Both the position numbers and the translations under genes were made by a program. From Pontiella desulfatans (lineage in GTDB: Bacteria > Verrucomicrobiota > Kiritimatiellia > Kiritimatiellales > Pontiellaceae): a stretch of DNA of 64,000 nucleotides. The notes under the pieces are model-generated. The model was given only the letters and a program-made list of their open reading frames with translations, ran no database searches and was not told the DNA's origin. Below, one piece after another: positions 23,219-48,202 of this stretch (positions are counted from its first letter, which is position 1; the number at the start of each line of letters is the position of its first letter). Where the stretch lies: NCBI RefSeq assembly GCF_900890425.1, contig NZ_CAAHFG010000003.1, forward strand, positions 682,001-746,000, in the 5' to 3' direction.

Positions 23219-24811
23219 CTATTTTCCTGAAAGTTTAGTTGTCGGCTTGAATTCAGCAAATGTCCCGGGCTGACCTTCCAGCTGTTCCATCAGGGTCCGT
23301 TTGAGCTGCTGCAACTTCTGTGCATACTCCGGGTGATTGGCCAGATTCTTCTGTTCCTTCGGATCTTTGGAAAGATCGTAGAGCTGATCGATATCCCAAT
23401 ACGCCGCATAGTTTTTCGGGATCTTCTTTTCCAGCCCGCGGCCGCCTCGTGTGGAGGCAATATGATAAAGCGGTTTGGGTTCGCCGTTTTTCGGGATATC
23501 AAACTTTTCTTCCCGATCCGGGTGTACACGCCAGGCGATGTATTTGAACCCATCTTTTAACACGGCACGCGATGAACCGATCTGCAGGTGTACATCTTTC
23601 CGCACCTCTTTGCTATCCCCCTGGAGAACACTGGTAAAACTGGTTCCGTCCATTGGAGGTTGTTTGGATTCCGGTATCCCGCAGAGTTCATAAATGGTCG
23701 GCGCAAAATCAATATTGGCCAGCAGCTGATCGGCGCGACGTTTCCCTTTCAGGTTTTTACCCCAGACAAAGGCCGGCACATGGGCGCCACCTTCGTAGAG
23801 TGCACCTTTGGCCCCCATGCCGTTATCCACAAAGAAAAAGATGATGGTGTTGTCGAGTTCACCCATTTCTTCAAGCTTCGTAATGATCGCGTTGATTCCG
23901 TCGTCGAGCCACAACGCATCGGCATGGTCACCTTTGGGCGGATATCCGGCGGCTTTGAGGCGTTTGGGAATGGTGTTTCGTGCGGGTTGGACCTGCAACG
24001 GTTCTCCAAGCACGCCTGCAGGAGTAAAGCGCGGATTTGCGGAGTATTTGTGCCCTGCGGGACCCGGACCATGGTTGAGGGTGGAACAGAAATGAAGATA
24101 AAACGGCTTGTCCTGTTTTTCAGCCTGTTCCAGAAAGTCGAGGCCGCCTTTGGTGATCCAGTCCTGATTATGGGCTTCCATCTTAATCGGCATATGGCCC
24201 GGAACGTTGCCGGCATAAATGCTGGCCGCATAGTCAAATCCGTTCTGCAGGACGCTGGCCACTTCAGCAGCCTGCTTGCTTTCGAGGAATTCCTGCGTTT
24301 TTGCATCAAAAGGATCTGCATCGCGCCAGGGCGAAATGCCCGGCACTTTGATGGTGTCGCTGTGGAGTACGTGGTTTTTTCCTGCAAAGCCGGTGAAATA
24401 GCCGTTTTCTTTGAGCACACTACCGATATTCGCCTTGCCCGGGGTGACATGAACATTGAAATGCGGGTTCGGCTGGTTTCCGAAGGCTTCCATATCCTGC
24501 AGGAATCCTTTGTCCTGGCTGCGGCTGGGATATTCTCCGGTCAACACACTAAACCGGCTCGGGGTACAGACGGTGGATGTTGCATACATCCGGTCCAGAA
24601 TAATGCCTTCGGAGGAGAGGCGATCAATGGTCGGGGTCAGGTTTTTCGGTTTGCCGTCTTCATCCCGGCCCTCAGGGAGAAAGTTGAACTCCGGACGCCA
24701 TTGGTCATCGGTCATGATAAAAAGGATATTCGGGCGCGTTTCTTTACTTAGCGCAGACGTCGCCGCTGCTGCCGCGAGAATCATGATCGTTAAAATTGCA
24801 TTCCGTTTCAT
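23219..24811 (-). CDS. Exported type I (FGly) sulfatase
   Basis: The signal peptide is in residues 1-22. The core opens RPNILFIMTDDQWRPEF (D35/D36 metal site) with the formylglycine motif C82-T-P-S-R86, then TGEYPSR, GKNHVLH, and a late FFVDNGMGAKG metal-site strand. Shared features with other members point to the S1 family; the sub-family is not assignable by eye. At 530 residues the length is normal. It is transcribed from a promoter-like motif at 24852-24879 that is back to back with that of the beta-helix gene at 24967. A sulfated glycan as substrate is inferred from the neighbouring GH29. Confidence 0.93.
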   Translation of the reverse strand: MKRNAILTIMILAAAAATSALSKETRPNILFIMTDDQWRPEFNFLPEGRDEDGKPKNLTPTIDRLSSEGIILDRMYATSTVCTPSRFSVLTGEYPSRSQDKGFLQDMEAFGNQPNPHFNVHVTPGKANIGSVLKENGYFTGFAGKNHVLHSDTIKVPGISPWRDADPFDAKTQEFLESKQAAEVASVLQNGFDYAASIYAGNVPGHMPIKMEAHNQDWITKGGLDFLEQAEKQDKPFYLHFCSTLNHGPGPAGHKYSANPRFTPAGVLGEPLQVQPARNTIPKRLKAAGYPPKGDHADALWLDDGINAIITKLEEMGELDNTIIFFFVDNGMGAKGALYEGGAHVPAFVWGKNLKGKRRADQLLANIDFAPTIYELCGIPESKQPPMDGTSFTSVLQGDSKEVRKDVHLQIGSSRAVLKDGFKYIAWRVHPDREEKFDIPKNGEPKPLYHIASTRGGRGLEKKIPKNYAAYWDIDQLYDLSKDPKEQKNLANHPEYAQKLQQLKRTLMEQLEGQPGTFAEFKPTTKLSGK

Positions 24812-24851: not shown

Positions 24852-24879
24852 AAATACCGCCTGTTTACGGGGTTTTGAT
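24852..24879 (-). promoter_or_regulatory. Regulon promoter motif for the sulfatase at 24811
   Basis: On the minus strand: ATCAAA, 14 nt, CGGTATTT, ending 40 nt before the sulfatase start. The hexamer and octamer match the motif found before ten other genes here. Its -35-like end is 18 bp from that of the divergent site at 24898. Confidence 0.65.
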
Positions 24880-24897: not shown

Positions 24898-24925
24898 ATC
24901 AAAACGCCACTGTTGAATGGGATTA
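24898..24925 (+). promoter_or_regulatory. Regulon promoter motif for the beta-helix gene at 24967
   Basis: ATCAAA, 14 nt, TGGGATTA, ending 41 nt before the GTG start. The octamer differs from CGGCATTA at two positions. Back to back with the sulfatase site. Confidence 0.6.
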
Positions 24926-24966: not shown

Positions 24967-27900
24967 GTGAATAGACGACTTAAATATGTACTGCATGTAT
25001 CCATGCTTTGTACTCTTTCGGCCTTTTCAACAGATTATTATGTTTCAACCAACGGGGTGGATGTTTGGCCCGGGGGTGATTTTTCGGCTCCGTTTGCGAG
25101 CATCCAATATGCCGCGGACCGCATGGTACCCGGGGATTCCTGCTACATCCGGACCGGGCGCTACCACGAGGAAATTACTGTTTCAAATACGGATCAATTA
25201 ACCTTTTCGGCCTACAGCAATGAAACCGTCGTGTTGGATGGCTCCATGGTTATTTCCAATGGTTGGACGCTGCATTCTGGAAATATCTACAAAACGACCC
25301 TGAACGAAGATGTGTGGCAGCTGTTTGCCGATGGTGAAATGCTGATTCCTGCCCGCTGGCCGAATGCGGACCCGAATATAGATCTGTGGGAGCAGTGGGA
25401 ATCGGATCATTGGGCGGAAGGACGATCAGAACGTAATTTCTCCCCGGATAATCCACCTTGGGATGTGAACGGAACGGTATATGATCATCCGCATAATGGA
25501 ATCGATCTAGCCGCATCGGGGCTGGATATCAGCAATGCCATTGCGGTGCTGAACCTGGGCAGTTTCAGAACCTGGACGCGTGTTGTGGATGCGCATGTCC
25601 CTGGTTCCAATATGTTCACCCATGCCCCGGTTTCTGCGTCGGGCTATAAAGACAAGGAGCACTATTATTTTGTCGAAGGCAAATTGGAACTGCTCGATGC
25701 GGAGAATGAGTGGTTCTATGATACGGTAACGTCAAATCTTTATGCTTGGGTTCCGGGGGGAGTAACCCCGGCGAGCTTGGAGATTAGGGGCAAACATACC
25801 ACGTATTGTTTCTCGGCAAGCAATTGTGATGACTTGATGCTTTCGGGCATCGATTTTTTTGCAGGGACTTTCCATTTGGATAACTGCCTGCGTGCCCGGG
25901 TCGAAAATTGTGAATTGCTTTATCCCAGCTGTACGAAACGCATGCTCCGTAATATTGGGGCTCCGGAAACCACGCATCTGGATGGGGATGACTCTATCGT
26001 ATTTAACTGTACCTTCGCTTACTCAGACGGCCATGGCATCTATGTGAACGGCGACGACAATACGGTAGAGAACTGCTACTTTCATCATATCGACTACAGT
26101 GTTTCCGAACTGCCGTCGGTTATGGCGGCACTTTATATGAACGGCAACCGGAATAGCTTTCGTAAAAATACGCTGCACAGTTTCGGGGCATCGGTCGGCT
26201 ATCTGCAGGATAAAGCCGCAACCACGGAATATAATAATTTCTATAACGGCGGCTACAAGCAACACGATGGTGCCATGGTTCAGGTGATGGTGGCGAATCA
26301 GTTGAATGCAAATATCGGCTGGAACTGGGTGCATGACTGGTCGCGCCTGGGTATCCGCTTCGATGGAGGAGGCGGTCAGGGCGGCCTGATTCACCACTCT
26401 GTGGGCTGGGGGCCGAACATGAATTCCACTGTCTATATCGGGAATCATGAAAACAACGAGGTTTACAATAACTCCGGCATATACAGTAAATCACGCAACG
26501 AGATTGTGGTAGAGCACGGCGGGGATCCATACAGCCACAATACAAACTCGATTACGCGCAACAATATTGCGCCGCGCATGGGCGGCAGCAACAGTGGGAT
26601 CAATGATGTACCGGGCACCTTTGACCATAACTGGAACAGTCAGGCGACCGGTGCAGATATTCGAACACAACTGCGGGATCCCGATAACCTCGACTTCCGT
26701 CCATTGCCCGGCGCGGATATTGTTGATGCCGGCACCAACGTTCCCGGTGTAACGGACGGTTATATGGGCAGTGCACCCGATATCGGTGCGTATGAATATG
26801 GGGATTCCAACTATTGGATTGCGGGTCATCAGGCCGAACAGGCTTCGATACCCATTCCGCCAAACGGGACGGCTGATGCCAAAGGTTCAGCCTCGCTGAT
26901 GTGGCATCCTGCACTGGGTACGCTTTCGAATCATGTTTATCTCGGAACTTCATCCAATGCCGTTCTCAATGCCACGCATGTGTCGCCCGAATACCGGGGA
27001 AACACGGTAAACAATATATATGATCCGCTGGGGCTTTATGCGCAGACCTACTATTGGCGCATCGATTGCGTTACGGTAACGGGTACCGTCAAGGGCGCAG
27101 TCTGGTCGTTTGCGGCATCGGACGTTTCCGCAACGCTTCCGGGGATTATAAATGCTCCGGCTGAAAATATTACGGAAGATTCCGCTGTAATTGGCGGACA
27201 GATCACGGATGGAGGAACGGCCTCACAGGTATGGGTTCATTGGTGGCCGGAAGCCGGGGCAACCAATACGGTCAATATGGGCGTTCAGGATTATGCTTTC
27301 GACCTTCCGCTTAACGGGTTGATCACGAATACGCAGTATTATTTCCAAGCTCAGGCATCGAACACGTATGGGACGAGCTGGGCGCCTACCATAGGCAGTT
27401 TTCTGACCGGCGGGGCAATGCCACCTTCTACTAAAATTGCCGTTGCACACCTGCCGGTGCTTGAGGATTCCTGGGTGCAGGAGGGCAATAATGAAGGGGT
27501 TAACCATGACGGCGAAACGATCCTTAAAGTGCGCGGAACAACCCGTTTCAGTTATTTGAAGTTTGATACCGGCAACCTGGATGGGGCTCAGTTTGATTCG
27601 GCCCGGATTTTTATCCGTGCCACACAGGATATTCCGGATACGTCAATGCACAGTGTTTCCAACAACAGCTGGACGGCGCCAACGCTCGTGGGCTCGAATG
27701 CCCCGGTGCGCGGTGCTGTTTTTGATTCCGTGACCGCTTCTGCCGGGGACTGGGTTGAATTTGATTCGTCGAGCTGGATTACGGGCAAGGGGGTCTGGTC
27801 GGTTGCCCTGTCAACATCTGCTTCGGGGGCGCTCAACTGGCATGCGGAAGAGTCGGGGAACGTGCCCTATCTAGCCGTGACCTATTTTTCGGATACCGCC

Positions 27901-28263
27901 GATCTGAATACCAATACTATTCCCGACTGGTGGGAAACGGATTATTTCGGGCACATCGTCGATAATACGGATGCCGATCTGGATGGCGTGGATAATTATG
28001 GCGAATATGTCGGCGATACGGATCCCACTGATTCCAATTCGGTTTTTTCCGTATCCGCGAGTGTGACCAACGGCGCAGATTTCAGACTGTCCTTTGGAAC
28101 ATCCACGAATCGAAACTATGCCGTTAAATCATCGACCAACCTGATTTCCAAGGTCTGGAACACGGAAACCAATTTGGTGCCCGGGCCGGGCGTTGAAGTG
28201 GAGGTTCCGCTGCCTGCCAAAAAACCAGAGGAGTTTTTCAGGGTTGAGGTGAGTGTTCCATAA
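24967..28263 (+). CDS. Exported right-handed beta-helix protein with DNRLRE module
   Basis: The GTG start at 24967 follows AGAGGG; a short signal peptide precedes DYYVSTNG. Residues about 20-600 form a parallel beta-helix: the entry DYYVSTNG..V.PGG..SAPFASIQ.A, GDSCYIRTGRYHEEI, VWQLFADGEMLIPARWPN, then short N-rich rungs. This architecture occurs in polysaccharide lyases and hydrolases such as PL6-type enzymes. After a GSAPDIGAYEYG linker come two fibronectin-like segments (about 620-815), a DNRLRE carbohydrate-binding-type module (about 820-970) and a C-terminal DLDGVDNYGEYVGDTDP module. It is a paralog of the gene at 28368. An enzymatic role on fucan is possible but unproven; no catalytic residues were assigned. 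Confidence 0.7.
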   Translation: MNRRLKYVLHVSMLCTLSAFSTDYYVSTNGVDVWPGGDFSAPFASIQYAADRMVPGDSCYIRTGRYHEEITVSNTDQLTFSAYSNETVVLDGSMVISNGWTLHSGNIYKTTLNEDVWQLFADGEMLIPARWPNADPNIDLWEQWESDHWAEGRSERNFSPDNPPWDVNGTVYDHPHNGIDLAASGLDISNAIAVLNLGSFRTWTRVVDAHVPGSNMFTHAPVSASGYKDKEHYYFVEGKLELLDAENEWFYDTVTSNLYAWVPGGVTPASLEIRGKHTTYCFSASNCDDLMLSGIDFFAGTFHLDNCLRARVENCELLYPSCTKRMLRNIGAPETTHLDGDDSIVFNCTFAYSDGHGIYVNGDDNTVENCYFHHIDYSVSELPSVMAALYMNGNRNSFRKNTLHSFGASVGYLQDKAATTEYNNFYNGGYKQHDGAMVQVMVANQLNANIGWNWVHDWSRLGIRFDGGGGQGGLIHHSVGWGPNMNSTVYIGNHENNEVYNNSGIYSKSRNEIVVEHGGDPYSHNTNSITRNNIAPRMGGSNSGINDVPGTFDHNWNSQATGADIRTQLRDPDNLDFRPLPGADIVDAGTNVPGVTDGYMGSAPDIGAYEYGDSNYWIAGHQAEQASIPIPPNGTADAKGSASLMWHPALGTLSNHVYLGTSSNAVLNATHVSPEYRGNTVNNIYDPLGLYAQTYYWRIDCVTVTGTVKGAVWSFAASDVSATLPGIINAPAENITEDSAVIGGQITDGGTASQVWVHWWPEAGATNTVNMGVQDYAFDLPLNGLITNTQYYFQAQASNTYGTSWAPTIGSFLTGGAMPPSTKIAVAHLPVLEDSWVQEGNNEGVNHDGETILKVRGTTRFSYLKFDTGNLDGAQFDSARIFIRATQDIPDTSMHSVSNNSWTAPTLVGSNAPVRGAVFDSVTASAGDWVEFDSSSWITGKGVWSVALSTSASGALNWHAEESGNVPYLAVTYFSDTADLNTNTIPDWWETDYFGHIVDNTDADLDGVDNYGEYVGDTDPTDSNSVFSVSASVTNGADFRLSFGTSTNRNYAVKSSTNLISKVWNTETNLVPGPGVEVEVPLPAKKPEEFFRVEVSVP

Positions 28264-28295: not shown

Positions 28296-28323
28296 GTCAA
28301 ATTCTCCCGATTTTACGGCATTA
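28296..28323 (+). promoter_or_regulatory. Regulon promoter motif for the beta-helix gene at 28368
   Basis: GTCAAA, 14 nt, CGGCATTA, ending 44 nt before the start. The kinase gene follows only 9 nt after the target gene, so it would be in the same unit. Confidence 0.7.
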
Positions 28324-28367
28324 ACAAAATAGTGTCGCAAAGGTGCAATGAACAAAAGAGGATGCGG

Positions 28368-31300
28368 ATGATACCTGTGAATAAATCCCTTATATTATCG
28401 ATTTTTGCCTGTGCTATGGCTGCGCATGCAACAGACTACTATGTGGCCACAAACGGCAATGACACCGCGAACGGGAAATCCGTAGGGAACGCCTTCGCGA
28501 CGATTCAGAAAGGTATTGATGAAATGTCATCCGGGGATACGCTCTATATCCGCGGTGGGCGCTATCATGAAGAGGTGGGCATTACCAATCGCACCGGCCT
28601 GACGATTGAAGCCTATGCCGGTGAGCAGCCGGTCATCGATGGCACGATTCCAATGGTTGGAACCTGGACGGCAACGAATTTGAATGGGCATTCGGTCTGG
28701 GTGACTTCAGCGAGCGAAGATATCTGGCAGCTTTTTGTGGATGACCGCATGCAGGTGGTGGCGCGCTGGCCGAATGTGACGGTGGGGCATCCGTGCGATC
28801 CGATCCAGCTGAAGGCCAACGGCCATGATCCGGTGGAGAACAGCTGGTGGGATATTGGCACCTGGGGGCAGATGTATAATGTACATAATGATTCCGGGGT
28901 TCTGACCAATCATACCGCTTATCACGACCTGGCCGCTGAGGGGCTTAGTTTTTCGGGGGGCTCGATTATTCTGAATTTCCACTCCGAATCACAGTTTTCG
29001 CGCAACATCCTCACGCATACTGCCGGGAGCAATGCGCTGACCTATGAGCCGGTGGTTAACCCGCACGACAAAGGGGCGGGTCCCTTTCTGATTGAGCATT
29101 TGAACGCGTTGGATCTTCCCGGCGAGTGGTGGTATGACCAAACCTCAGGGCTGGTCTGGTTCTGGCCGGAAGGCGGGCAGGATCCCAACCAGCTCAACAT
29201 TCGTGGAAAATCGATTGATTATGGATTGTCGATTGGTGGATCCAGTTCGGATATCGAAGTGAAAAATATCGACTTCTTTGCCTGCACGGTGAATGCACCG
29301 AACCAGTCATATCTGACGTTTGACGACTGTCTTTTTGACTATCCCACCTGGTTTCCGAGGATGCTGGGGGAACATACCTACAACATGGTCAACGGCGAGG
29401 CCCGCATGCAGCCGCTGGGCGAGGGAACCACCCGCCTGACGGATGGATCGAACCACACCATCAAAAACTGCATTTTCCGATATTCGGATGCGCTGGTCGA
29501 TATGGATGACGGGTTTCAGAATGTGGTGGATAATAATCTGTTTCACCACTGGAGCTTTTCCGGTATGGCCTCCTTTGTGTTGAACATGAATTCGAATCAC
29601 GAAAGTGTGCAGCGCCGAAACACCTTCCATACCAATGGTTCAAAGGTGATGTCCAAGCATTCCAACTGTGATGTGGAGTGGTCGCGTGCGTATTGGTTCG
29701 GCTATTTCCAGAACGATGGAACCGCGTGGCAGTGCAAAGGGGGTAACGGGGCCGGGGGCGGATCAGATGGCGTACGACGACATCATATCTGGCACCATGA
29801 TGCCAAGAAGGTCGGCGGACGCTGGGATGGTAATGCCGGAATCAATGGCACCGACGATCACTTTGTTTCATGGAATGCCGTGGCATCGCTGCTGATCAAA
29901 GGGGACTACCATCGCGTTGTGAATAATACCGGACTCTTCTCTCATGACCCGACCGATAACATGCATAAGATCGACATGGGGTCGGATACGAATGATGTGA
30001 AGAATGGTCACACCATCACCTATAACAATCTTTCCGACAGTATTTCGGCCACACGCAGCGGCTATACGCCGTTGAACGGGAATGCCACCAACAACTGGAA
30101 CGGATATCATCATCCAGACCCGTCCGATACGGCAGACAAGCAACTGCGTGACCCGAAGAATCTCGATTTTCGCCCGCGGGCGGATTCGGATCTGATTGAC
30201 CAGGGTACGGTGGTTCCCGGTCTCAATGAGGATTATATGGGCAGTGCGCCGGATATCGGCGCCTATGAGCATAACTGCACAAACTATTGGATTCCCGGTT
30301 TCCAATCACTGGAAGCCAGTACGCCGGTTCCTCCCAATGGTTCCATAACCGTGAAATCCGATGCCGACCTGATGTGGCTGGCCGGCCGGGATTCGACCTC
30401 ACACAATATTTATTTCGGCACTATTTCGGGAGCTCTCACGTTCAGCACCAATCAGGTGAACAATATTTTTGAGCCGGGTGAACTGGTGGAGGGGCAGACC
30501 TATTTCTGGCGGATTGACGAAGTGACGCCGACGGGAACCGTGGTTGGCACCGAATGGAGTTTCACACCGGGAACCGAGCTGACGACCGTTTATCAAAGCT
30601 TTACTCCGATTGCCGATACGTATGCGCACTATGATGCCAGCAATGCAACCTATGCCACACAGAATTTCGGCACTGATACCTCGATCAAGTTTACCAGTTA
30701 TAATAATGGAGACGTTAGGAAACACGGTTACATGATGTTTGATGTCAATGTGACCGGCCAGGTGGTTTCGGCTACGTTGAACCTGCATAACCCCAATGGC
30801 GGAACGGTAGGGGGGCTGGGGGTTTATGCTATGACCAATGCCGCGTGGGGTGAGTCTACACTCACCTGGAATAACCGTCCGGAAATTGATGGGCCTATTC
30901 TGGACAGTAAGGATATTAAAACCGGGTGGAGCTCGTTTTTTGTCGGGGAAGGCGTATCCACCGGCCTGGTGTCATTTGGACTGATTAAGGAACTGGGTAA
31001 CGGAAACCGGGCCATTTCCAGTTCGGAAACCACCAACAGTCCGGTGCTGATCGTTGAATATGCCGCGGACCTTCCTGATCTTCCGGCGATGCCTCAGAAT
31101 TTAACCGCGCTCGGTGGTCCGGGGAATATTGCACTGAGTTGGGATGCGAGTCCGGAAACCTATGTGATGGGTTATGATGTTTACCGAACCGATTATATTG
31201 AAGATGACTTTGTTAAGATCAATGCGTCGCTGGTGACCTCCGCTGTTTATGTGGATACGGCCGTCATTCCGGGGCAGATTTATTACTATAAAGTCCGGGC

Positions 31301-33047
31301 AGTGGATCAGTATGGACGGCAGTCGTACGGTACGCCATGGGCGGATGCCGTGCCGCAGACACAGGGAGGAAATACACCGCCCATATTCACCTCCAACCCG
31401 GTTGTGAAATCCGTGGGCGGTCAGGATTCATCATACAGCGGTAACCTGGCGGACAATGCCGTGGATTTAGATGGTGATTCATTACTGTTCAGCAAGCTTT
31501 CCGGTCCATCGTGGTTGAACGTGGCGACCAACGGGGTGCTGTCAGGAATGCCGGGCAACGATGATGTGGGGCTGAATAGCTGGCAGGTTGAGGTAAGCGA
31601 TGGCGAGGATGCCAATACGGCCACACTTCGGATCACCGTAATCAATGTGAACGACGCTCCGGTGTTTAATGCTGATCCAATCATTGGAACTGACGGCATT
31701 GTTGGAGAGGACTATATGGATACCCTTGCAGATGATGCCGATGATATGGACGGGGATACGCTGACCTTCTCTAAACTGTCCGGGCCCTCCTGGTTGAGTG
31801 TGGCGGCCAATGGGGAACTTTCCGGAATGCCCGATGCTGCCGGCCTGAATATTTTCAATGTGCAGGTTTCTGATGGCAACGGTGGAAGTGATACGGCAAT
31901 ACTTCATATTGACGTGGCCGCCGAACCTCCAGCAGGCGAGCTGCTCGCCTATGAGGGGTTTGAATATGAGGCTGGCACGAAGATTCATGGCCTTAATGGA
32001 GGGTTAGGATTCAGCAATGTCTGGGTCAGCAGCCAGAATGGATTGTCGGATGATCACTTCACCATTGTGTCGGACGGTGACAGTTGGGGCGATCTGGCGG
32101 TTTCAAGTAACCGGCTTCAACGGGTTTCGCCCGGAGGAAAAGAATCGTTATCCCGCGTGCTGTCCGGCGATCTGGGAGCTACGAACCTTTGGTTCAGCGT
32201 GCTTTGGCGTCCGAATGAAAATGAAGGATTCGCCATTGGGTCAGGAGCCTTACAGGAAGATGGTAGCCCACCCGATAATATTAATGGTGATGTTGGTTTC
32301 GGTTTCACCAATGCCGATAATCTGAATGCATTAGCGTGTATCTGGGATGCATCCGGCCGCCACGAATCCAGCGGTTCTATTTCCATCAGCCAGAATACTC
32401 CGGTGCTCGTGGCGGGGTATATCGAGTTCAATGTCGGAACCTCGGGAGAGGACCGGTTGTCATTATATCCGGTTTCGACCAACCTTACATTGGGATCAGC
32501 AATTACCGTTGAGTTGGATGTCGATGAAAGCACATTGAATACACTCACCATTGAAACCCAGGCGGGGCCGGGTTATGACGAAATTCGAATCGGCCGAACG
32601 GTTGACGATGTGCTTCCGGACAGTTCAGAGCCTCCGGCGCCTGTACCGGCGTATGACACGTGGAGCGATGAATTTGGACTGGTGGGTGCGGAGACGAATT
32701 ATTTTGCCCAAACCGATACCGATGGCATGAATCAGTTGCTGGAATACGGTCTGGGCGGCAATCCGACCAATGACGATGCTGATGCCGTTATGCCGGCGTC
32801 TTCAATGATTGAGATTGGCGGAACAAACTGGATGGAATATGTCTATCGCCGGCGCACCGATGCCGACAGCCGCGGACTGGCCTATTGGCTGGAGCGGAGC
32901 ACAAATCTTGTTTCCAATATTTGGAACACCAATGGATATATGGAAGTCGGTACAGGAAGCCTCGAGCCGGGATTTGAATCCGTAACCAACCGGGTGCAGG
33001 CCGATGACGGTGAGCAGTATATTCGCCTGCGCATCTCTATTGAATAG
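28368..33047 (+). CDS. Giant exported beta-helix, DNRLRE, cadherin-like and LamG-like protein
   Basis: AGAGG at 28357-28361 supports ATG 28368 over the upstream GTG. After a signal peptide (ending MAAHA) comes a parallel beta-helix of about 600 residues much like that of the gene at 24967 (DYYVATNGNDT, GDTLYIRGGRYHEEV, WQLFVDDRMQVVARWPN). Next are a DNRLRE module (about 745-900), a fibronectin type III domain (about 910-1005), two cadherin/putative-Ig repeats (NTPPIFTSNPV, LSGMPGNDD; then DAPVFNADPI, LSGMPDAAG), and a LamG-like domain opening LLAYEGFEYEAG that recurs in three other proteins here. The end is a Verrucomicrobia-type EYGLGGNP module. A cell-surface or secreted glycan-binding or -cleaving role is inferred. 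The kinase gene starts 9 nt downstream. Confidence 0.7.
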   Translation: MIPVNKSLILSIFACAMAAHATDYYVATNGNDTANGKSVGNAFATIQKGIDEMSSGDTLYIRGGRYHEEVGITNRTGLTIEAYAGEQPVIDGTIPMVGTWTATNLNGHSVWVTSASEDIWQLFVDDRMQVVARWPNVTVGHPCDPIQLKANGHDPVENSWWDIGTWGQMYNVHNDSGVLTNHTAYHDLAAEGLSFSGGSIILNFHSESQFSRNILTHTAGSNALTYEPVVNPHDKGAGPFLIEHLNALDLPGEWWYDQTSGLVWFWPEGGQDPNQLNIRGKSIDYGLSIGGSSSDIEVKNIDFFACTVNAPNQSYLTFDDCLFDYPTWFPRMLGEHTYNMVNGEARMQPLGEGTTRLTDGSNHTIKNCIFRYSDALVDMDDGFQNVVDNNLFHHWSFSGMASFVLNMNSNHESVQRRNTFHTNGSKVMSKHSNCDVEWSRAYWFGYFQNDGTAWQCKGGNGAGGGSDGVRRHHIWHHDAKKVGGRWDGNAGINGTDDHFVSWNAVASLLIKGDYHRVVNNTGLFSHDPTDNMHKIDMGSDTNDVKNGHTITYNNLSDSISATRSGYTPLNGNATNNWNGYHHPDPSDTADKQLRDPKNLDFRPRADSDLIDQGTVVPGLNEDYMGSAPDIGAYEHNCTNYWIPGFQSLEASTPVPPNGSITVKSDADLMWLAGRDSTSHNIYFGTISGALTFSTNQVNNIFEPGELVEGQTYFWRIDEVTPTGTVVGTEWSFTPGTELTTVYQSFTPIADTYAHYDASNATYATQNFGTDTSIKFTSYNNGDVRKHGYMMFDVNVTGQVVSATLNLHNPNGGTVGGLGVYAMTNAAWGESTLTWNNRPEIDGPILDSKDIKTGWSSFFVGEGVSTGLVSFGLIKELGNGNRAISSSETTNSPVLIVEYAADLPDLPAMPQNLTALGGPGNIALSWDASPETYVMGYDVYRTDYIEDDFVKINASLVTSAVYVDTAVIPGQIYYYKVRAVDQYGRQSYGTPWADAVPQTQGGNTPPIFTSNPVVKSVGGQDSSYSGNLADNAVDLDGDSLLFSKLSGPSWLNVATNGVLSGMPGNDDVGLNSWQVEVSDGEDANTATLRITVINVNDAPVFNADPIIGTDGIVGEDYMDTLADDADDMDGDTLTFSKLSGPSWLSVAANGELSGMPDAAGLNIFNVQVSDGNGGSDTAILHIDVAAEPPAGELLAYEGFEYEAGTKIHGLNGGLGFSNVWVSSQNGLSDDHFTIVSDGDSWGDLAVSSNRLQRVSPGGKESLSRVLSGDLGATNLWFSVLWRPNENEGFAIGSGALQEDGSPPDNINGDVGFGFTNADNLNALACIWDASGRHESSGSISISQNTPVLVAGYIEFNVGTSGEDRLSLYPVSTNLTLGSAITVELDVDESTLNTLTIETQAGPGYDEIRIGRTVDDVLPDSSEPPAPVPAYDTWSDEFGLVGAETNYFAQTDTDGMNQLLEYGLGGNPTNDDADAVMPASSMIEIGGTNWMEYVYRRRTDADSRGLAYWLERSTNLVSNIWNTNGYMEVGTGSLEPGFESVTNRVQADDGEQYIRLRISIE

Positions 33048-33056
33048 CGGTGTGAA

Positions 33057-35141
33057 ATGCGCGAAACTCCCGAAATGAGCGATGACTATTCAGAGCTTGA
33101 ACAGGAATTAACGGATCGGCTGCCCGACCTGGAATCGCTGTATGAAGATTCCGGGGATATGGAGGGTGCAGAGCAGACGTATCTTCTTCCTATCCTGAAC
33201 TCGTTGCGCGAAGCCCACGGGCATTATACGGATGAAACCTTTGTCAGCGCGGGCGGAGAAAAGCGTATCTACAAAGTGCGTGATTTGCATACCGACCGTA
33301 TGGTGGCGCTGGCCAAACCGCTGGAGGATGCAACAGAAGAGCAGAAAGAGCAGTTTCTCCGTGAAGGCCGGTTGACGGCTTGCCTGCAGCATCCCAACAT
33401 TCTTTCCATTCACGATGAGGGGCTCGATGAAAACGGCGATCCGTTTTTCACCATGGAATATGTTCATGGCGATACGCTGAAGACCATTATCCGAAGGATT
33501 CAGCGGGGTGATGAGGATTATGTGAAGCGCTTTCCGCTGTCCCGTCTGCTGGAGCTTTTCGTTAAAATCTGTGATGGAATCGCCTATGCCCATTCCAGAG
33601 GGGTCCTTCATCTGGATATTAAGCCTGCAAATATTTTTGTCGGTCCTTACGGTGAGGCGTTGTTGTGTGATTGGGGGTTGGCCAAAATTATCCGGTCGGA
33701 TGATGGATTGGATACTGATGAATTGCCCGCTGAGGAATTGCCGAACGGAGATATACTCAATGATCTGACCCGGCATGGGGTAGTAAAGGGAACACCGGGG
33801 TTTATGGCTCCGGAGCAAGTGAAACCCGGTCAACAGATATCGGCACAGACCGATGTGTATTCGCTGGGAGCCCTTCTGTATTTTATTCTTATTTTTCGAC
33901 CGCCGGTCTCCGGCACGTCCATGACGGAGGTCGCTGAACGCACCCTTGCGGGGAATATTATTGCCCCATCCCGAGCCTTGAAGGGGCGTTCGATTGCCAG
34001 TGGGCTTGAGGCGGTTGTGATGAAAGCGTTATCGCTGAAGCCGGAAGATCGTTATGTCAGTGTGCAGGCCTTCCGTGATGAACTCGACCGCTACCTGATG
34101 GGGTTTGCCACCAAGGCCCAGGATGCGGGCTGGCTGATGCAGCTGTGGCTGTTGATCAAACGCCGGAAGTTTGCTTTTCGTGTCGCGGTAATATCTTCCA
34201 TTCTTCTGTTGCTGCTGGGGGTTGGTGCGTTCGTCCGGGTGGTGGGGGAAAAACGACAGGCCGAAGCGGCCCGGAGCGAAGCGGAGGAAAACCTCAGGTT
34301 GTATAAAGAGGAAACAGAAGTTTCGCGCACCCTTTCAGACAGTATCCGGGCGACTGCATTGGATTTTATAAATGATGAAGATTTCCTGAATGCACCGGGA
34401 AAGATTAAGTCCATTAACAGTCACCTTCTGCAGGAAACTGATCCTGAAAATCGGCAGGTCATGCTCGAATATTTGGCTATGCTGCATTTTGTGGTGCAGG
34501 ATTTTAGACAGGCCGCGGCATGTTTTGATCAGATCACCGTGAGCCAGCGGTATGAGGCTTGTCGGGATCTGGCGAAACAATATGGAGCAAATAAAACCGA
34601 CGAGGAATGGCTGAGTGCCACTGAAATGGTATCTTTGCTCAATGAACTTAAACGCCATATCCGGAACGTGGCCTACTATATGGCCTATTACTATTTCAGC
34701 GAACACCCGAGGATGCCGGCAGAGGAGTTGCTGCCGGTGGTTGAGGTCATGCTGGATACGCTCAATAATCTTTCCTATACTGAAAAATCCATGAACAGCC
34801 TGGAGCTGGTTTCCGGTGAGCAAGGATTGCATCTGTCTCTTGCGGGAAAACCCTATTCCGTCTTTATTATGCCTATTCCGGTAACGATTAGGCAGGCCAA
34901 CGTCTTGCGGCCTCTTAAATTGCATTCGCTGGATTTAAGCGATTCTGGACTGAACGATCTTGAACGGATCAGCGGCATGTTGGTCGACGAGCTGAATATT
35001 GCCGGTCTTAAAACCATTCCATCCTTTAAATTCTATGTCTTTGACCGGCTCAAGGTGAAAAAGGTTTTCCATACGTTGGATCACCCCGATAAATATCTCA
35101 GGAAACATGCGCCGGATGTGGAGTTTATCCGGGTGGATTAG
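33057..35141 (+). CDS. Membrane-anchored Hanks-type Ser/Thr protein kinase
   Basis: Cytoplasmic kinase domain at about residues 60-355: degenerate Gly loop (SAGGEKRIYKV), Lys87 (VALAKP), catalytic loop H185-L-D187-I-K-P-A-N (HLD instead of HRD), metal loop D205-W-G instead of DFG, and GTPGFMAPE. HLD and DWG variants are common in planctomycete and Verrucomicrobia kinases and compatible with activity. One membrane helix (about 372-397, rich in I/L/V) follows RRRK-type positive residues, then about 300 residues outside with a coiled-coil start (EAARSEAEENLRLYKEE) and helical, TPR-like sequence. It starts 9 nt after the beta-helix gene, so the two are probably co-transcribed, and it converges on a sigma-factor gene. 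Sensing of surface status and control of that sigma factor is a hypothesis. Confidence 0.88.
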   Translation: MRETPEMSDDYSELEQELTDRLPDLESLYEDSGDMEGAEQTYLLPILNSLREAHGHYTDETFVSAGGEKRIYKVRDLHTDRMVALAKPLEDATEEQKEQFLREGRLTACLQHPNILSIHDEGLDENGDPFFTMEYVHGDTLKTIIRRIQRGDEDYVKRFPLSRLLELFVKICDGIAYAHSRGVLHLDIKPANIFVGPYGEALLCDWGLAKIIRSDDGLDTDELPAEELPNGDILNDLTRHGVVKGTPGFMAPEQVKPGQQISAQTDVYSLGALLYFILIFRPPVSGTSMTEVAERTLAGNIIAPSRALKGRSIASGLEAVVMKALSLKPEDRYVSVQAFRDELDRYLMGFATKAQDAGWLMQLWLLIKRRKFAFRVAVISSILLLLLGVGAFVRVVGEKRQAEAARSEAEENLRLYKEETEVSRTLSDSIRATALDFINDEDFLNAPGKIKSINSHLLQETDPENRQVMLEYLAMLHFVVQDFRQAAACFDQITVSQRYEACRDLAKQYGANKTDEEWLSATEMVSLLNELKRHIRNVAYYMAYYYFSEHPRMPAEELLPVVEVMLDTLNNLSYTEKSMNSLELVSGEQGLHLSLAGKPYSVFIMPIPVTIRQANVLRPLKLHSLDLSDSGLNDLERISGMLVDELNIAGLKTIPSFKFYVFDRLKVKKVFHTLDHPDKYLRKHAPDVEFIRVD

Positions 35142-35233
35142 GTAGGGCTCGCTCTCCGAGCGCGCCTCTCGGTGGAACAGCTCTGCGCTTGTGCGGTGCG
35201 GCAGGGCGGACGGCTCGGAGAGCCATCCCTACC
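35141..35233. repeat. Palindromic extragenic repeat between convergent genes
   Basis: The arms 35141-35161 and 35213-35233 are inverted copies (18 of 21 matching). Each arm contains its own small hairpin around TCC, with different but self-complementary stems: CGCTC/GAGCG on the left, GGCTC/GAGCC on the right. It lies between the convergent kinase and sigma genes and may also end transcription from both sides. Related elements occur near 42.8, 48.0 and 52.0 kb. Confidence 0.7.
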
Positions 35234-35238
35234 TCTCT

Positions 35239-35889
35239 CTACTCCAAATCCTGTTTCAGAAACTCCAGTTCGGTATTAAAGCGGGTTTTGACGCGCGACT
35301 TGAGTGTGTTGACGGTGCTTTCCGAAAGTCCCGTGCGCGACATCACTTCTTCGGTGCTCCATCCCTGAATGCAGAGGCGGAAAACCTCGATGGCATTTTT
35401 TGAAAAGAGGGACTCTATGTTTTTCAAGGCCAGGTTGGTGAGATGGATACGCCATTCCTGATCGGCAATTTTATCGATCTCCGGCAGGCGGATATTGTCG
35501 AGGTAGCTCAGCGTGGAATCCGCTGCTGCTTTTTCCTCGCGGGCAACACGGCGCTGACTGGAACGGATAAACTGCAGCACTTCGTTTTTGGTGATGGTGC
35601 TGAGGTATCCCCGGAAACTGGTAATGCGTTCCAGTTCAATGTTTGGAAGTTTTTCCCAGAGTTTAATCATGATATTCTGGTGGATGTCCTGCGCATCAGC
35701 CTCTGATATATTCATATTCCGAATTACGGCATACACATACCGCCGGTAGATTTCGATGAATTCTTCCCAAGCCCGCTCATTCTGCTGGTTCTGTACCCGC
35801 GCGATGAGGGTTTTACGAGTGGCGTATTGGTCGTTCTGGCCGTTTTTCATGTCATCCATCATACCCATGAAACGCCGGAAAGCAGACAT
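35239..35889 (-). CDS. Sigma-70 family RNA polymerase sigma factor (ECF-like)
   Basis: A 216-residue protein with region 2 at about 35-110 (RAWEEFIEIYRRYVYAVIR, EADAQDIHQNIMIKLWEKL, FRGYLSTITKNEVLQFIR) and region 4 at about 150-210 (KNAIEVFRLCIQGWSTEEVM, then the helix-turn-helix GLSESTVNTLKSRVKTRF). There is no region 3, as in ECF factors, and no anti-sigma gene follows; instead a Ser/Thr kinase gene is convergent, as in ECF groups regulated by phosphorylation. Its start region faces the gene at 36021, which has a copy of the shared RTCAAA-N14-CGGCATTA motif. Directing that regulon is inferred. The start at ATG 35889 is the longest; in-frame Met codons follow. Confidence 0.88.
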   Translation of the reverse strand: MSAFRRFMGMMDDMKNGQNDQYATRKTLIARVQNQQNERAWEEFIEIYRRYVYAVIRNMNISEADAQDIHQNIMIKLWEKLPNIELERITSFRGYLSTITKNEVLQFIRSSQRRVAREEKAAADSTLSYLDNIRLPEIDKIADQEWRIHLTNLALKNIESLFSKNAIEVFRLCIQGWSTEEVMSRTGLSESTVNTLKSRVKTRFNTELEFLKQDLE

Positions 35890-35922
35890 TTTTTTATGAA
35901 ATGCATTTTTTTTGTAAAAAAC

Positions 35923-35950
35923 ATCAAAATCAGCATTTTGTACGGCATTA
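35923..35950 (+). promoter_or_regulatory. Regulon promoter motif for the exported protein at 36021
   Basis: ATCAAA, 14 nt, CGGCATTA, preceded by an A-tract (UP-element-like) and ending 70 nt before the start. It lies in the divergent space with the sigma-factor gene. Confidence 0.75.
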
Positions 35951-36020: not shown

Positions 36021-39000
36021 ATGAAAGTCAAGCAGTGGATGGCAGTGGCGTCTGTTTTAGTTACGGCGGGTTCTGCGAATGCGGTGTTGTTAGCCTATGA
36101 AGGATTCGAATATCCGACCACAGCCGGGGGATTATGGTCAGGCACAGGAAGTACCGGATTAAACGGAGGGACTGGCTTTGCCGGCGAATGGTTTGTAACC
36201 GATACCAGCGGCGCCGCAAACTGGAACATCACCGCCGGAAGCCCTTCATGGGGATCGCTGAATGTGAGCAGTAATCAGCTGTTCCGCGAATTAACAGGCG
36301 GTACAGAGGAATTAAGCCGGCCGATTCATGCGACGAATGTAACTGCTTTTGTTGCTGCAGGTGAAATGTGGTTCAGTGTGCTTTGGAAAGGTGGTGATAA
36401 TGCGGCTTTTGCTATCGGAGGAGGCCCATTTGCCAACGACACCGCCCTGACTCTCTCTTCGGGACCTGGATTTGGTTTCCAGAACAGAAACCTTTCAGGA
36501 ACAGGACAGGGTATTGCTGCCGCAGTTTGGGACGACGGGGGCGTTGTAACCTTCAACGGAGCCGGTGACTTGGCTCTTTCGCGTGGAACCACAGCTTTTC
36601 TGGTCGGCCATGTTTCATTTAATACAGGCACTGGCGGCGCGGATGTTTATAAACTTTATTCCGTCGGCGTGGATCTGGTCTTGCCGGATACACCAATCGC
36701 CACACTTGAAGTCAATGCAACAGAGTCTTTATTGGATACGGTAGCCCAGAACACCAACCGCAACCCGGGAATGGATGAGCTGCGCATCGGAACTACCTAT
36801 GCCGACGTTATAGCCGCTTCTGTGGAGTTCATCTTTAACCTGATGCCGGAAGACCAGCAGATTGTCCGGGCCGATTATCCGGCAGTTTCAGCAACGAACA
36901 GTATTCAGGTGGAGTATGACAACCACGCAGCAGGCATCGAGATTTCGGCGTTGAACCTTTCCGATACCAATGCGTTCAGTGTTTTAACCGGGACGCCTTT
37001 CACCATGACCGATCCCATTCCTTCGAACACGGCATTGGAATTTATTTATGATGCCTCTGTGGTTTCCAATATTACCGGAGCGACGGCCGGATTCAGTACC
37101 ACCGGTTCGGTGGATATCGTTTGGACCAAGGTGGGAAGTGGAGTTTCCGAAACCAATACGGTTGAGTTGATCGGACAGTTCCGCAATTCCGCCGCTGATT
37201 TTAATTATGACAGCAGCCTCTCCCTGGGACTGCAATATCCCGCAACAGCGGTAACCAACGATATATCGGTCTCCTATGTGGCCGGTCGTCCGGGACACAC
37301 CAACGTGCAGATTACGGCGATTGATTTGGTGAATGCCTCCACCAATGGATTCAGCGTTCTGACAGCTCCGTTTACGATCCCGGATGCTGAGCCGTCCAAT
37401 TCGGTCATTCAGGTGGCATTCGACAACAGCGGTGGTCAGCTGCAGAATAAGGACAGCGCGACCGCTGATATTCTGATCACCTGGCAGGAAGCCGGAGGAA
37501 TCACCAATTATGTTGTGACCAACTCGGTGTCAGTTACTTATCTGAACCTGCCGCAGGGGGTCATTCAGCAGGTATTTTCCAATCCATCCAATATTGAAAC
37601 CTTTGGTGATGGTAAGCTGCAGTTGAACAACTTTGCATTGGCCACCAATAAATGGATCGGCGCAAATCTGGAGCAGAAGGTTGGTGACGGATATCTGTGG
37701 GTGAAGTCCGGCGGTAACAACCGCTCAACGGTGAATCTGATCGAAAGCGGCACGCGCGGCATGGATAACTTCGGCCCGCAGGATACGGTGGTTCTGAGCA
37801 ACGGCCTGTATCGCTATGACTTCGACTTTGAAATGACGCGAACACCTAATGCGGAAAATATGTGGGGCTTCGGGGCCTATGCCTTGATCGGCCAGGATAC
37901 CTACGATACCAACAGTATGGTCAACTATGTTGAGTTTGATCTGGGTACCGGTGACCCGGTCTATGTTGATCCGGTAGGGGTGGGCTCTGCCTATTACCGC
38001 GTTCACCCGAACGGCAAGCTGATCAGTTCAAATATCATTGCGCGCACGACCGGTTCCGTCTATCTGAACATTCAGGATGGAGAAGATGCCCTGTTCGTGA
38101 TTCAGTCGGGTGGAAATGCAGAGCCCTATATTTATGAGCTGACACTGACCCGTGTCGGGGACTTTGATCCAAACACCGATACACCGAATTCACCGAATGC
38201 GGTACTGGCGGCCGACTTCAATGATGCCAGTGCAACAAATGCAATTGTTGTATGGGATCAGACCGATACCAACGCAGGAACGGACAGCAACGGGGTTTCG
38301 ATTGCGAATACATTCCGCGGTACCAATGTGGATTGGGATAGTCAGAAGCTTTCCTCCATTGCAAATAATAATACCAGGAAGGCCACAGCGATTGTGTTAC
38401 GGCGGGGTGAGGCAGGCTATGATGACGTCGGTGTGCAGGATACGATTGCTCTGACATCCGGGGTATACAGCCTGACGCTTGATCTTGATATTGAGGGATC
38501 GTTCCCATCGAATTCTTCCTTGGTCAGCGTTGAGCTCTATGCGTTATCACAGGATCCGGCCGGTGATGTTAATCAGGTTCAGATCTTCCACGCACCCGGC
38601 GACTTTGCGACGCTGCGAACGGATGGAACCGCGGGCTTCAGTCTGTTGGGTAAGGTGGAGTATACCAATACACTGTCGACCACCGTATCGCTGACGGATA
38701 TGCAGGTACTTAATGATCAGGACGTTGCCCTCGTTTTTTATCACCGGGAAGGGCCTGATCTGCTCATCGACAACATCGAGCTGGTGCGCACCGGCGATGC
38801 AGTCCTGTCTGGCTATGAGGGATGGGCATCAGGCTTTGCCGGATTCTTCGATACGGCGCTTGAATCAGATCCTGATGGCGATGGCGTCAACAACCTCCTG
38901 GAATATGCCCTTAATGGTGACCCAACCGCAGGAGGCGACGATATCCTGCCGAAATCCACTATGGGTATGGATGGTGGAAGCAACTGGCTCTATTATGTTC

Positions 39001-39197
39001 ATACCGAACGTACGGATGACGGTACACTGACCTACACCGTTGAAGCCGGAAACAACCTGGTGTACACCAACTGGAGTGCGGCAGGTATCGACTATGTCGA
39101 TGAAACGGTTCCGGCTGGTAACTATAAGTCGGTAACCAACCGGACGGATGTGGATCTTTCCTCCGAGTTCATTCGTTTGCAGGTTGAAAAAGACTAA
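36021..39197 (+). CDS. Exported LamG-like multidomain surface protein
   Basis: ATG 36021 follows AGGAGAG; the signal peptide ends GSANA. Domains in order: a LamG-like domain (about 24-265, LLAYEGFEYPTTAGG to GMDELRIGTTYADV); two Ig-like repeats (about 270-510, each with ...NTVELIGQF or ..NSVSVTYLN ends and the AVTNDISVSYVAGRPGHTNV pattern); two lectin-like modules (about 515-720 and 725-925, each ending ..L.RTGD or TRVGD and containing DNFGPQDT or DVGVQDTI); and a C-terminal DPDGDGVNNLLEYALNGDP module. It is a paralog of the gene at 39548. No PEP-CTERM or LPXTG signal is seen, so how it is anchored is unclear. Surface adhesin or glycan-binding role inferred. Confidence 0.6.
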   Translation: MKVKQWMAVASVLVTAGSANAVLLAYEGFEYPTTAGGLWSGTGSTGLNGGTGFAGEWFVTDTSGAANWNITAGSPSWGSLNVSSNQLFRELTGGTEELSRPIHATNVTAFVAAGEMWFSVLWKGGDNAAFAIGGGPFANDTALTLSSGPGFGFQNRNLSGTGQGIAAAVWDDGGVVTFNGAGDLALSRGTTAFLVGHVSFNTGTGGADVYKLYSVGVDLVLPDTPIATLEVNATESLLDTVAQNTNRNPGMDELRIGTTYADVIAASVEFIFNLMPEDQQIVRADYPAVSATNSIQVEYDNHAAGIEISALNLSDTNAFSVLTGTPFTMTDPIPSNTALEFIYDASVVSNITGATAGFSTTGSVDIVWTKVGSGVSETNTVELIGQFRNSAADFNYDSSLSLGLQYPATAVTNDISVSYVAGRPGHTNVQITAIDLVNASTNGFSVLTAPFTIPDAEPSNSVIQVAFDNSGGQLQNKDSATADILITWQEAGGITNYVVTNSVSVTYLNLPQGVIQQVFSNPSNIETFGDGKLQLNNFALATNKWIGANLEQKVGDGYLWVKSGGNNRSTVNLIESGTRGMDNFGPQDTVVLSNGLYRYDFDFEMTRTPNAENMWGFGAYALIGQDTYDTNSMVNYVEFDLGTGDPVYVDPVGVGSAYYRVHPNGKLISSNIIARTTGSVYLNIQDGEDALFVIQSGGNAEPYIYELTLTRVGDFDPNTDTPNSPNAVLAADFNDASATNAIVVWDQTDTNAGTDSNGVSIANTFRGTNVDWDSQKLSSIANNNTRKATAIVLRRGEAGYDDVGVQDTIALTSGVYSLTLDLDIEGSFPSNSSLVSVELYALSQDPAGDVNQVQIFHAPGDFATLRTDGTAGFSLLGKVEYTNTLSTTVSLTDMQVLNDQDVALVFYHREGPDLLIDNIELVRTGDAVLSGYEGWASGFAGFFDTALESDPDGDGVNNLLEYALNGDPTAGGDDILPKSTMGMDGGSNWLYYVHTERTDDGTLTYTVEAGNNLVYTNWSAAGIDYVDETVPAGNYKSVTNRTDVDLSSEFIRLQVEKD

Positions 39198-39426: not shown

Positions 39427-39444
39427 ATTTTTATTTAAAAAAAT

Positions 39445-39472
39445 ATCAAACCACCTTCTTGAGTCGGCATTT
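39445..39472 (+). promoter_or_regulatory. Regulon promoter motif for the exported protein at 39548
   Basis: ATCAAA, 14 nt, CGGCATTT, with an A-tract just before it, ending 75 nt before the start. Confidence 0.75.
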
Positions 39473-39547
39473 ACACCATCTGTAGGAGGGGATGCATGGG
39501 AGCATTCCGAAGAATCAGATAAATCCAAGCGAAAGCAGGAGATGGAA

Positions 39548-42500: not shown

Positions 42501-42670
42501 CGTTCATCGTGGACCTCAACGGCAATCTGACTATCCCGGGTGGTTGGGGAAGCGCCGGTCTTGAAGCCGAAGAACGCGGCCTTGATGATGGCGAATTCCA
42601 GAGTGTGACCAATAGCACTGATATGTTGGAAGCCGCAGAATTCATCCGCCTCCAGGTTGAGAAGGACTAA
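39548..42670 (+). CDS. Exported LamG-like multidomain surface protein, paralog of 36021
   Basis: AGGAG at 39537-39541 best fits ATG 39548 (ATG 39542 is too close). The signal peptide ends TVQA. The domain order repeats that of the 36021 gene: LamG-like (LVYEGFEYDTTTGG to GIDEIRVGATYNDV), two Ig-like repeats (NTVALKGTF; VSNDIAVSYVEGRPGYTNV), two lectin-like modules (DNFGAQDT; GYDDVGLQDTI; FYHRYGPDFFIDNVEL) and a NNLMEYALGGDP C-terminal module ending FIRLQVEKD, the same last residues as the paralog. Gene duplication is evident and both copies have their own promoter motif and terminator. Role inferred as a surface or matrix protein; no enzymatic motif seen. Confidence 0.6.
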   Translation: MDIKRWISLVAVMAVAGTVQAADPLVYEGFEYDTTTGGIESASLGGGVGLSGAWGSSDAAGSFFNVTSGSFSLGSLTVSSNKLKRTNTGGVEAIERTISASLPSEFWFSVLHETSATTQFGIGGGAFGDGSSGNGNMATGPGFGFTHKGGNLGAAVWPAGSAVSVSVGGTVAKSDNNVLLLVGHVKRNVGGNDTVDLYEVDATLVLPGAPLSTVSQPTAAGSLNTLTISSNRGPGIDEIRVGATYNDVVPASAAFTFNLTPDDTQDLLADYPAVVVSNSILTEYANSSSGVEITALNVMSVSNAITAITATPFTLSTPSPAITALDFAFDASAIKAITSATEAFTTTGTVDIVYKNLDDNVLQTNTVALKGTFSNPPFQFSSDSSLGLTLVAPATLVSNDIAVSYVEGRPGYTNVVISEVNILDEQHPGAFSANNPGAIQTTDVITVTFDDSFVGLGNKQSSTCTVEVVYGEAGSSIDYTNTVSVAAFNYDLSTGSVIQQVFGNAVNLNGPLGGGTLPMNNFEAFTNNWNHNGNFTQETSAGSITLSSSGNTRSAYNLVEANTAGSDNFGAQDTHILTNGLYRYEFDYEVLNTDGANVIWSFNAYGLIDQQLFSTSSNPDKVVLDIATGASGGVDVDIQNDGNGYYSEHGDGILAGTGDVARTTGYVYLNVKDNQDALFVMHRSGKCDVRLYDLVLTRVGDYELPVNSTNAVLAAQFEDSAVTNSIVVVGATETNTNGVNNTWRGTGLSHVDRKLKSNAADTAVRATGTIIHRNTAGYDDVGLQDTIALTEGTYELSLDVQVDGTFPSNDSIARVEFWALDQDTSGTNNYVKWDHAPGTGEYLKTNGNAKVTLLGSKTYTNTVTETLVLSDLNVQADQDVAIVFYHRYGPDFFIDNVELLRTGDLPLEGYSLWAEDNGLTAGVNDGLEDDAENGGLGDGLNNLMEYALGGDPLVDDAATVSPQTSEAGGFFYHVYNERTDDPSLTFIVDLNGNLTIPGGWGSAGLEAEERGLDDGEFQSVTNSTDMLEAAEFIRLQVEKD

Positions 42671-44046: not shown

Positions 44047-44074
44047 ATCAAAACGATATCCCGCCGCGGCATTA
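44047..44074 (+). promoter_or_regulatory. Regulon promoter motif for the PEP-CTERM gene
   Basis: ATCAAA, 14 nt, CGGCATTA, ending 67 nt before the start. The preceding A-tract lies at the junction with the IS target duplication, so insertion left the core motif intact but replaced everything further upstream. Confidence 0.75.
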
Positions 44075-44141
44075 CCACTCTTGATAGCAACGAAGCGGTT
44101 GCTCTTCAGTGAATTCATGCAGTGAAAAAGGAGAAAAGAAA

Positions 44142-45115: not shown

Positions 45116-45143
45116 GTCAAAATCAGGGAGTACTGCGGTATTT
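45116..45143 (+). promoter_or_regulatory. Regulon promoter motif for the exported protein at 45214
   Basis: GTCAAA, 14 nt, CGGTATTT, preceded by an A-tract, ending 70 nt before the chosen start. Confidence 0.7.
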
Positions 45144-45213
45144 TTATTTCTGTAGAGAGTATGGGTTTTCTCCGGCTTTGGGGAATGTTGGCATTGGAAA
45201 AACCGAAGGGTAT

Positions 45214-46138: not shown

Positions 46139-46166
46139 GTCAAGATCACTACCGGCAGCGGCATTT
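46139..46166 (+). promoter_or_regulatory. Regulon promoter motif for the GH29 gene at 46205
   Basis: GTCAAG, 14 nt, CGGCATTT, ending 38 nt before the start. One mismatch in the hexamer. Confidence 0.6.
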
Positions 46167-48161: not shown

Positions 48162-48202
48162 TATTTGTAGAATCAGGATGAATTCAACGATTGGGGAATA
48201 CG

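Follow-up and report, generated by a model that had tools for sequence, protein, structure and literature searches.

Organization of the kinase-sigma locus

In the stretch of Pontiella desulfatans DNA analysed here, which covers 64,000 nucleotides (C3:682001-746000, hereafter the window), a gene encoding a membrane Ser/Thr kinase of the Hanks type (33057..35141, + strand) converges on a gene encoding an ECF-like sigma factor (35239..35889, - strand). The two ORFs are 97 bp apart without an intervening gene, and no anti-sigma-like product is found among the neighbours of the pair. On one side, the kinase ORF starts 9 nt after the gene of a beta-helix/CBM96 surface protein (28332..33047, +; PF24517 76 bits), whose likely start is near 28368; on the other side, the sigma gene is divergent from the gene of a large secreted surface protein (36021..39197, +). 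Both surface protein genes are preceded by the same promoter motif, at 28297..28322 (+) and 35924..35949 (+) respectively. The layout described in the first-pass annotation, namely a kinase gene directly after a motif-bearing beta-helix gene, convergent on an ECF-like sigma gene without anti-sigma partner which itself diverges from a second motif-bearing target, is thus borne out in each of its parts.

The kinase ORF matches the Pfam Pkinase model with 115.9 bits (cut-off 31.7) and displays intact catalytic motifs of a Hanks-type kinase, with VALAK at the VAIK-like lysine, HLDIKPAN for HxDxKxxN, DWGL for DxG, and APE. A single hydrophobic stretch of 19 residues, located near residue 380 and C-terminal to the kinase domain (mean hydropathy 2.46), is the predicted membrane anchor, and the remaining ~ 300 residues beyond it are predicted to lie outside the cytoplasm. 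The model of this C-terminal part (pLDDT 86.8) comprises a helical, TPR-like portion followed by a small beta-rich portion, and its comparison by fold with the PDB gave no confident match (best E 0.12). Given that the ortholog starts at MSDDYSELEQEL, the true start of the kinase would probably be 33075, with a gap of 27 nt to the beta-helix gene.

The sigma ORF scores above cut-off with both Sigma70_r2 (55.9 bits, cut-off 24) and TIGR02937 (68.7 bits, cut-off 42.9), while the region 4 model Sigma70_r4_2 gives 19.5 bits, under its cut-off of 25.7. The protein therefore has the composition of the ECF superfamily, with regions 2 and 4 only and a match to the superfamily model, region 4 being weak. 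With TIGR02989, the Rhodopirellula/Verrucomicrobium sigma family, it reaches 35.5 bits and falls far short of the cut-off of 124.55. Region 2.2 reads DAQDIHQN; the acidic D/ExxD/E is present, with no Thr at that site, and is kept in the sigma copies examined. An N-terminal TRx[TS]L[LI] was considered as a sign of kinase control and rejected, since it is a family mark also found in relatives that have no kinase nearby; in the predicted structure the N-terminus is of too low certainty to place T24 and T27.

A long inverted repeat (GGTAGGGCTCGCTCTCCGAGCG ... CTCGGAGAGCCATCCCTACC) at 35142-35235 fills the gap between the two genes. Its arm has a single other exact copy in the genome, at C1:1203045, and the structure may serve as a bidirectional terminator or be a mobile repeat.

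A bipartite promoter motif and its predicted targets

The genome searched comprises 8,658,305 bases. The 12-base seed TTNTACGGCATTA occurs in it exactly twice, at 28311 and 35938 of the window; about one copy is expected by chance and a reversed control pattern also has two matches. Hence, the significance comes from a fuller motif. Indeed, aligning both seeds extends them to TCAAA, 14 bases and CGGCATT, and the motif that had been claimed as common to the surface protein genes, which is real though it was under-described, resolves to an ECF-type promoter of the form TCAAA-N14-CGG[N][A/G]TT, represented in the window by nine intergenic sites and one conserved variant. An A-rich tract is often seen upstream of the first box.

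The spacing of the two boxes is sharply defined, as TCAA[AT]-N14-CGG[CTG][AG]TT has 8 matches in the window at spacer 14 and 0 to 2 with any of the other spacer lengths between 6 and 25. When one more letter is allowed in the first box, 10 sites are obtained, nine of which are intergenic, with the start codon of a gene in the same orientation 9-71 nt downstream; in a background control of 260 kb from two genomes, four matches were found and none of them is intergenic. Genome-wide, 10 of the 27 strict matches fall within 44 kb, a stretch that takes in part of the window and the kilobases immediately past it, a clustering figure which is post hoc in its choice of region and whose seeds were chosen from the same window. 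The controls for spacing, position and orientation are independent of that choice.

The sites and the genes behind them extend over both sides of the kinase-sigma pair. Upstream, a site at 24853..24878 (-) precedes a sulfatase gene (23219..24811, -; PF00884 137.3 bits) and the variant TCAAA-N14-TGGGATT at 24899..24924 (+) precedes the gene of a beta-helix/CBM96 protein (24967..28263, +; PF24517 61 bits). The site at 28297..28322, with the sequence TCAAA-N14-CGGCATT, would drive the beta-helix gene 28332 together with the kinase. Beyond the site of the divergent surface protein gene, further copies lie at 39446..39471 (+) before a second large secreted surface protein (39542..42670, +), at 44048..44073 (+) before a PEP-CTERM gene (44109..45008, +) and at 45117..45142 (+) before the gene of a secreted protein without Pfam match (45178..46008, +). 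The PEP-CTERM product ends in VIPEPVTLGMVAVFGGGILFIRRRF, with the C-terminal PEP, transmembrane stretch and basic end of this class, and scores 16.8 bits with TIGR02595 (cut-off 16). Two GH29 alpha-L-fucosidase genes follow, one at 46205..47944 (+; PF01120 246.4 bits) behind a site with one mismatch, TCAAG, at 46140..46165 (+), and one at 48191..49684 (+; PF01120 294.6 bits) behind the weaker TCAAT-N14-CGGGGTT at 48135..48160 (+); both of these sites are weak and could be chance matches. The last site, at 54452..54477 (-), precedes the gene of a GH141-like beta-helix protein (52095..54407, -; Beta_helix 62.2 bits, GH141_M 28.3 with a cut-off of 27). Just past the window, sites precede another GH29 gene and another sulfatase gene.

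The window as a whole is rich in sulfatases, GH29 fucosidases, rhamnosidases and beta-helix proteins and, judging from these enzyme families, the substrate of the target cluster would be a fucan/fucoidan-type polysaccharide. At the start of the window, a LacI-type regulator (5338-6447) lies between alpha-L-rhamnosidase genes, which suggests a separate rhamnose-type locus under other control.

Several other features were observed in the same region. A transposase-like ORF with VDETFIGG (43322-44005) is found within the predicted regulon, directly before the PEP-CTERM gene. A sulfatase remnant (54552-54950, +), with an intact N-terminus and an early stop, adjoins a TCAAA-N13-CGGCGTT at 54501. 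Finally, a C-terminal end of the type VTNR...FIRLQVE is common to many secreted proteins (36021-42670 and many loci) and may act as a further signal for sorting or anchoring, in addition to PEP-CTERM.

Autoregulation of the sigma gene through the TCAAA-N14-CGG motif was also considered and rejected, since there is no good copy upstream of the gene, just a weak match overlapping the start codon.

Conservation of the locus and of the motif

The nearest named relative used for comparison is Pontiella sulfatireligans F21. The gene order is kept in this species, with the beta-helix gene, a surface gene, the kinase, the convergent sigma gene and the divergent surface gene, and one extra gene before the kinase. 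In both species the kinase gene is inside a motif-driven operon, and the ortholog of the surface protein gene 36021 is likewise divergent from the ortholog sigma gene. Three promoters have orthologs in P. sulfatireligans, namely those of the sulfatase 23219-24811, of the beta-helix gene 24967 and of the surface protein gene 36021. Their boxes are identical at 36 of 36 positions and their spacers at 14 of 42; the box identity is partly circular, as the sites were found by their boxes, while the conservation of variant, strand and place is not, and the TGGGATT variant is found identical at the orthologous place.

In a sister clade of sigma factors (L100 and L105, support 100/100), a related motif with a shorter spacer, TCAAA-N13-CGGAGTT, is found in two genomes at the equivalent divergent place. 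The whole P. sulfatireligans genome has six matches of this N13 motif, and four of them are within 31 kb around the sigma gene of the L100/L105 clade. The split between N14 and N13 thus follows the sister sigma clades, so that motif and sigma factor change together. The sigma factors of the N13 clade (L100, L105) are without one residue of region 2 present in the N14 clade, near residue 90, just before FRN/FRG. Taken at the level of DNA and protein comparison, the case for the motif being the promoter belonging to the clade of the window sigma factor is strong.

A different regulator could nevertheless read the motif, either the sigma factor of a neighbouring pair (C3:760731-763444) or an unrelated transcription factor, in which case the window pair would control something else. 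Three further sites between both pairs (L152) fit such an arrangement, as does the position near some C1 sites of another P. sulfatireligans sigma gene, orthologous to L054 of this genome. However, two boxes with a fixed spacer close to a start codon are arranged as in an ECF promoter, the neighbouring pair has no site either at its divergent gene or farther on, and the L054 locus of this genome has no N14 site. Moreover, the split between N14 and N13 tracks the sister clades, and the members inspected have a site next to their sigma gene. We consider this explanation very improbable.

P. sulfatireligans also has another copy of the orthologous sigma gene, truncated and without its kinase, at C1 L099:9719-10243. 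The L099 block is duplicated, with the divergent promoter and the surface gene retained.

A family of kinase-sigma pairs

The search for the same kinase/sigma pairing in related genomes, which the first-pass annotation had proposed as a check, was run and the neighbourhood is conserved. The P. desulfatans genome itself contains 20 paralogous kinase-sigma pairs, some convergent and most co-directional with the sigma gene before the kinase gene, and a kinase lies within 3 kb of 71 of the 84 sigma copies examined, a figure in which some loci count twice through two retrieval routes. Among sigma relatives outside the family, a kinase is present in the stretch examined in some cases and missing in others. 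The catalytic motifs are intact in all 20 kinases of this genome. Across the 20 pairs, kinase distances and sigma distances are highly correlated (Mantel r = 0.917, reached in 0 of 10000 permutations), as would fit partners but also pairs that were each duplicated as a unit.

Kinase and sigma factor could accordingly be mere co-inherited neighbours rather than enzyme and substrate, the sigma factor being set by its own expression while the kinase has other target proteins, such as components of secretion or of the cell surface. Convergent genes are not co-transcribed, and some sigma relatives lack a kinase in the stretch examined, such as the truncated P. sulfatireligans copy. Against this, the association occurs 20 times within a single genome, in convergent as well as co-directional order, with strongly correlated divergence, and a chance neighbourhood would not survive such rearrangement. 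Co-inheritance without a functional link is consequently held to be quite unlikely.

PEP-CTERM genes accompany many of the pairs, as one is found within 10 kb of 14 of the 20 pairs compared to 4.6 expected under random placement. One pair (L052), together with its orthologs (L107-L111, L173-L184), is conserved across Pontiellaceae beside housekeeping genes with no adjoining PEP-CTERM genes, so the pair design is not for surface proteins only. The sigma gene of this type is preceded by a conserved CTTTGC ... TAGCTT, resembling an ordinary sigma-70 promoter.

Private promoters at the other pairs were looked for by an unbiased dyad search, which gave results at or below background; this is a crude test in which the dyad of the window is not outstanding either. 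A search for the TCAAA box at the other pair loci of this genome gave no clear repeat. We tentatively propose, giving it somewhat less than an even chance, that about 20 Ser/Thr kinase-ECF channels operate in parallel in Pontiellaceae and that most of them have a private promoter for their own nearby surface-protein and polysaccharide cluster. The phosphorylation mechanism in these channels would be unlike that of EcfP, because region 2.2 stays acidic.

Proposed mechanism

The reading that we favour, with fair though limited confidence, is that the kinase and the sigma factor of the window form a pathway-specific, kinase-linked ECF switch for the local fucan-type cluster, including the kinase operon. 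The membrane kinase would probably sense something outside the cytoplasm via its C-terminal part and probably phosphorylate, and thereby license, the convergently encoded sigma factor. The latter would direct RNA polymerase to the TCAAA-N14-CGG[N][A/G]TT promoters of sulfatase, GH29 fucosidase, beta-helix and PEP-CTERM genes. One of the driven operons ends in the kinase gene, which would close a positive loop through kinase supply. As far as gene order and motif conservation can tell, the predicted regulon and its feedback architecture are well supported; the phosphorylation of the sigma factor by the kinase, and the sign of its effect, are what we infer.

The feedback loop put forward in the first-pass annotation, in which the sigma factor drives its own activating kinase together with the surface protein, stands in one part. 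The kinase gene belongs to a motif-driven operon in both species, which makes a positive loop through the kinase the natural reading, but the sigma gene itself is without a good motif copy, and so the loop would run through the kinase and not through sigma autoregulation. Its direction depends on the kinase: an activating kinase would give positive feedback through kinase supply, an inhibiting one a homeostatic loop.

The second case corresponds to an alternative in which the kinase is a negative partner comparable to an anti-sigma factor and either tethers the sigma factor to the membrane through its cytoplasmic part or inactivates it by phosphorylation. In canonical ECF operons, the inhibitor gene is often expressed from the same promoter as the genes around it, the locus has no anti-sigma gene, and a sigma factor with an acidic region 2.2 may be active by default. 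Pure sequestration is opposed by the catalytic motifs, intact in all 20 kinases, and EcfP and EcfK, the kinase-linked ECF factors that have been studied, are activated by their kinases (PMC8999054, PMC13147305). A negative role appears unlikely to us, less so than the two alternatives weighed above.

The mechanistic core of the analogy with EcfP/PknT drawn in the first-pass annotation did not hold. In EcfP and most ECF43 members, the DAED patch of region 2.2 is lost and its charge is regained by Thr phosphorylation (PMC8999054, PMC13147305). Charge restoration of this type was rejected as stated for the window sigma factor, which retains the acidic region 2.2 (DAQDIHQN) and has no Thr there; the one well-studied reason for such a sigma factor to need its kinase is thus absent here. 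Linker phosphorylation has also been reported for EcfK (PMC13147305). In the licensing model that we favour, phosphorylation in the linker or at conserved N-terminal Thr residues would be possible, with T24, T27, T100 and T151 among the conserved positions of the protein.

Relation to known systems and significance

The closest characterised systems are the ECF43 pairs EcfP/PknT of Vibrio parahaemolyticus and EcfK/PknS of Xanthomonas citri where, as here, an ECF sigma gene adjoins the gene of a membrane Hanks-type kinase, with no anti-sigma factor and one output regulon. They differ in that the acidic patch is typically lost and replaced by a Thr, whereas it is kept here, in their gene order, which is convergent here and places the kinase last in a target operon, and in their outputs, with polymyxin resistance and type VI secretion there compared to the surface proteins and fucan-type enzymes predicted here. 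Other kinase-linked ECF groups are already known, several of them from planctomycetes (PMC8999054, PMC8103513). Among them, ECF59, ECF61, ECF62 and ECF217, mainly of Planctomycetes, share with the window pair the Ser/Thr kinase neighbourhood, PVC bacteria as hosts and, as the review describes it, an acidic or nearly acidic region 2.2 (PMC8999054). For these groups the accessible literature that was found gives no regulon or promoter, both of which are predicted for the pair described here.

PEP-CTERM genes in Proteobacteria are under sigma-54 control with PrsK/PrsR (PMC1569441). That system also combines a dedicated sigma-dependent promoter motif with a membrane kinase for PEP-CTERM surface proteins, but it relies on sigma-54, a histidine kinase and a response regulator instead of an ECF sigma factor and a Ser/Thr kinase. 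A literature search, mostly outside subscription journals, returned no paper joining polysaccharide utilization, ECF sigma factors and Ser/Thr kinases, and no such kinase-sigma regulator is named in the passages retrieved from two papers on Pontiella.

Kinase-linked ECF groups outside ECF43 are known mostly by neighbourhood, and for one such pair there is now a promoter, a list of predicted targets and a feedback layout that is conserved; its host is related to bacteria growing on sulfated algal sugars. The window sigma factor represents a candidate regulator for PEP-CTERM genes outside Proteobacteria, a point left open by the paper that discovered PEP-CTERM (PMC1569441). Furthermore, it offers a test case for the control by a kinase of a sigma factor that kept its polymerase-binding charge, and the N14 and N13 sister sigma clades amount to a natural experiment on how spacers are recognised and how parallel sigma factors are kept insulated from one another. 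In Bacteroidota, glycan loci are served by many paralogous ECF/anti-sigma modules, each for a nearby glycan-use locus and with positive feedback; these modules use an anti-sigma factor and a TonB-dependent transducer, where a Ser/Thr kinase is found here. If the proposal of about 20 parallel channels is true, Pontiellaceae would have an equivalent of these Bacteroidota modules that is built on kinases.
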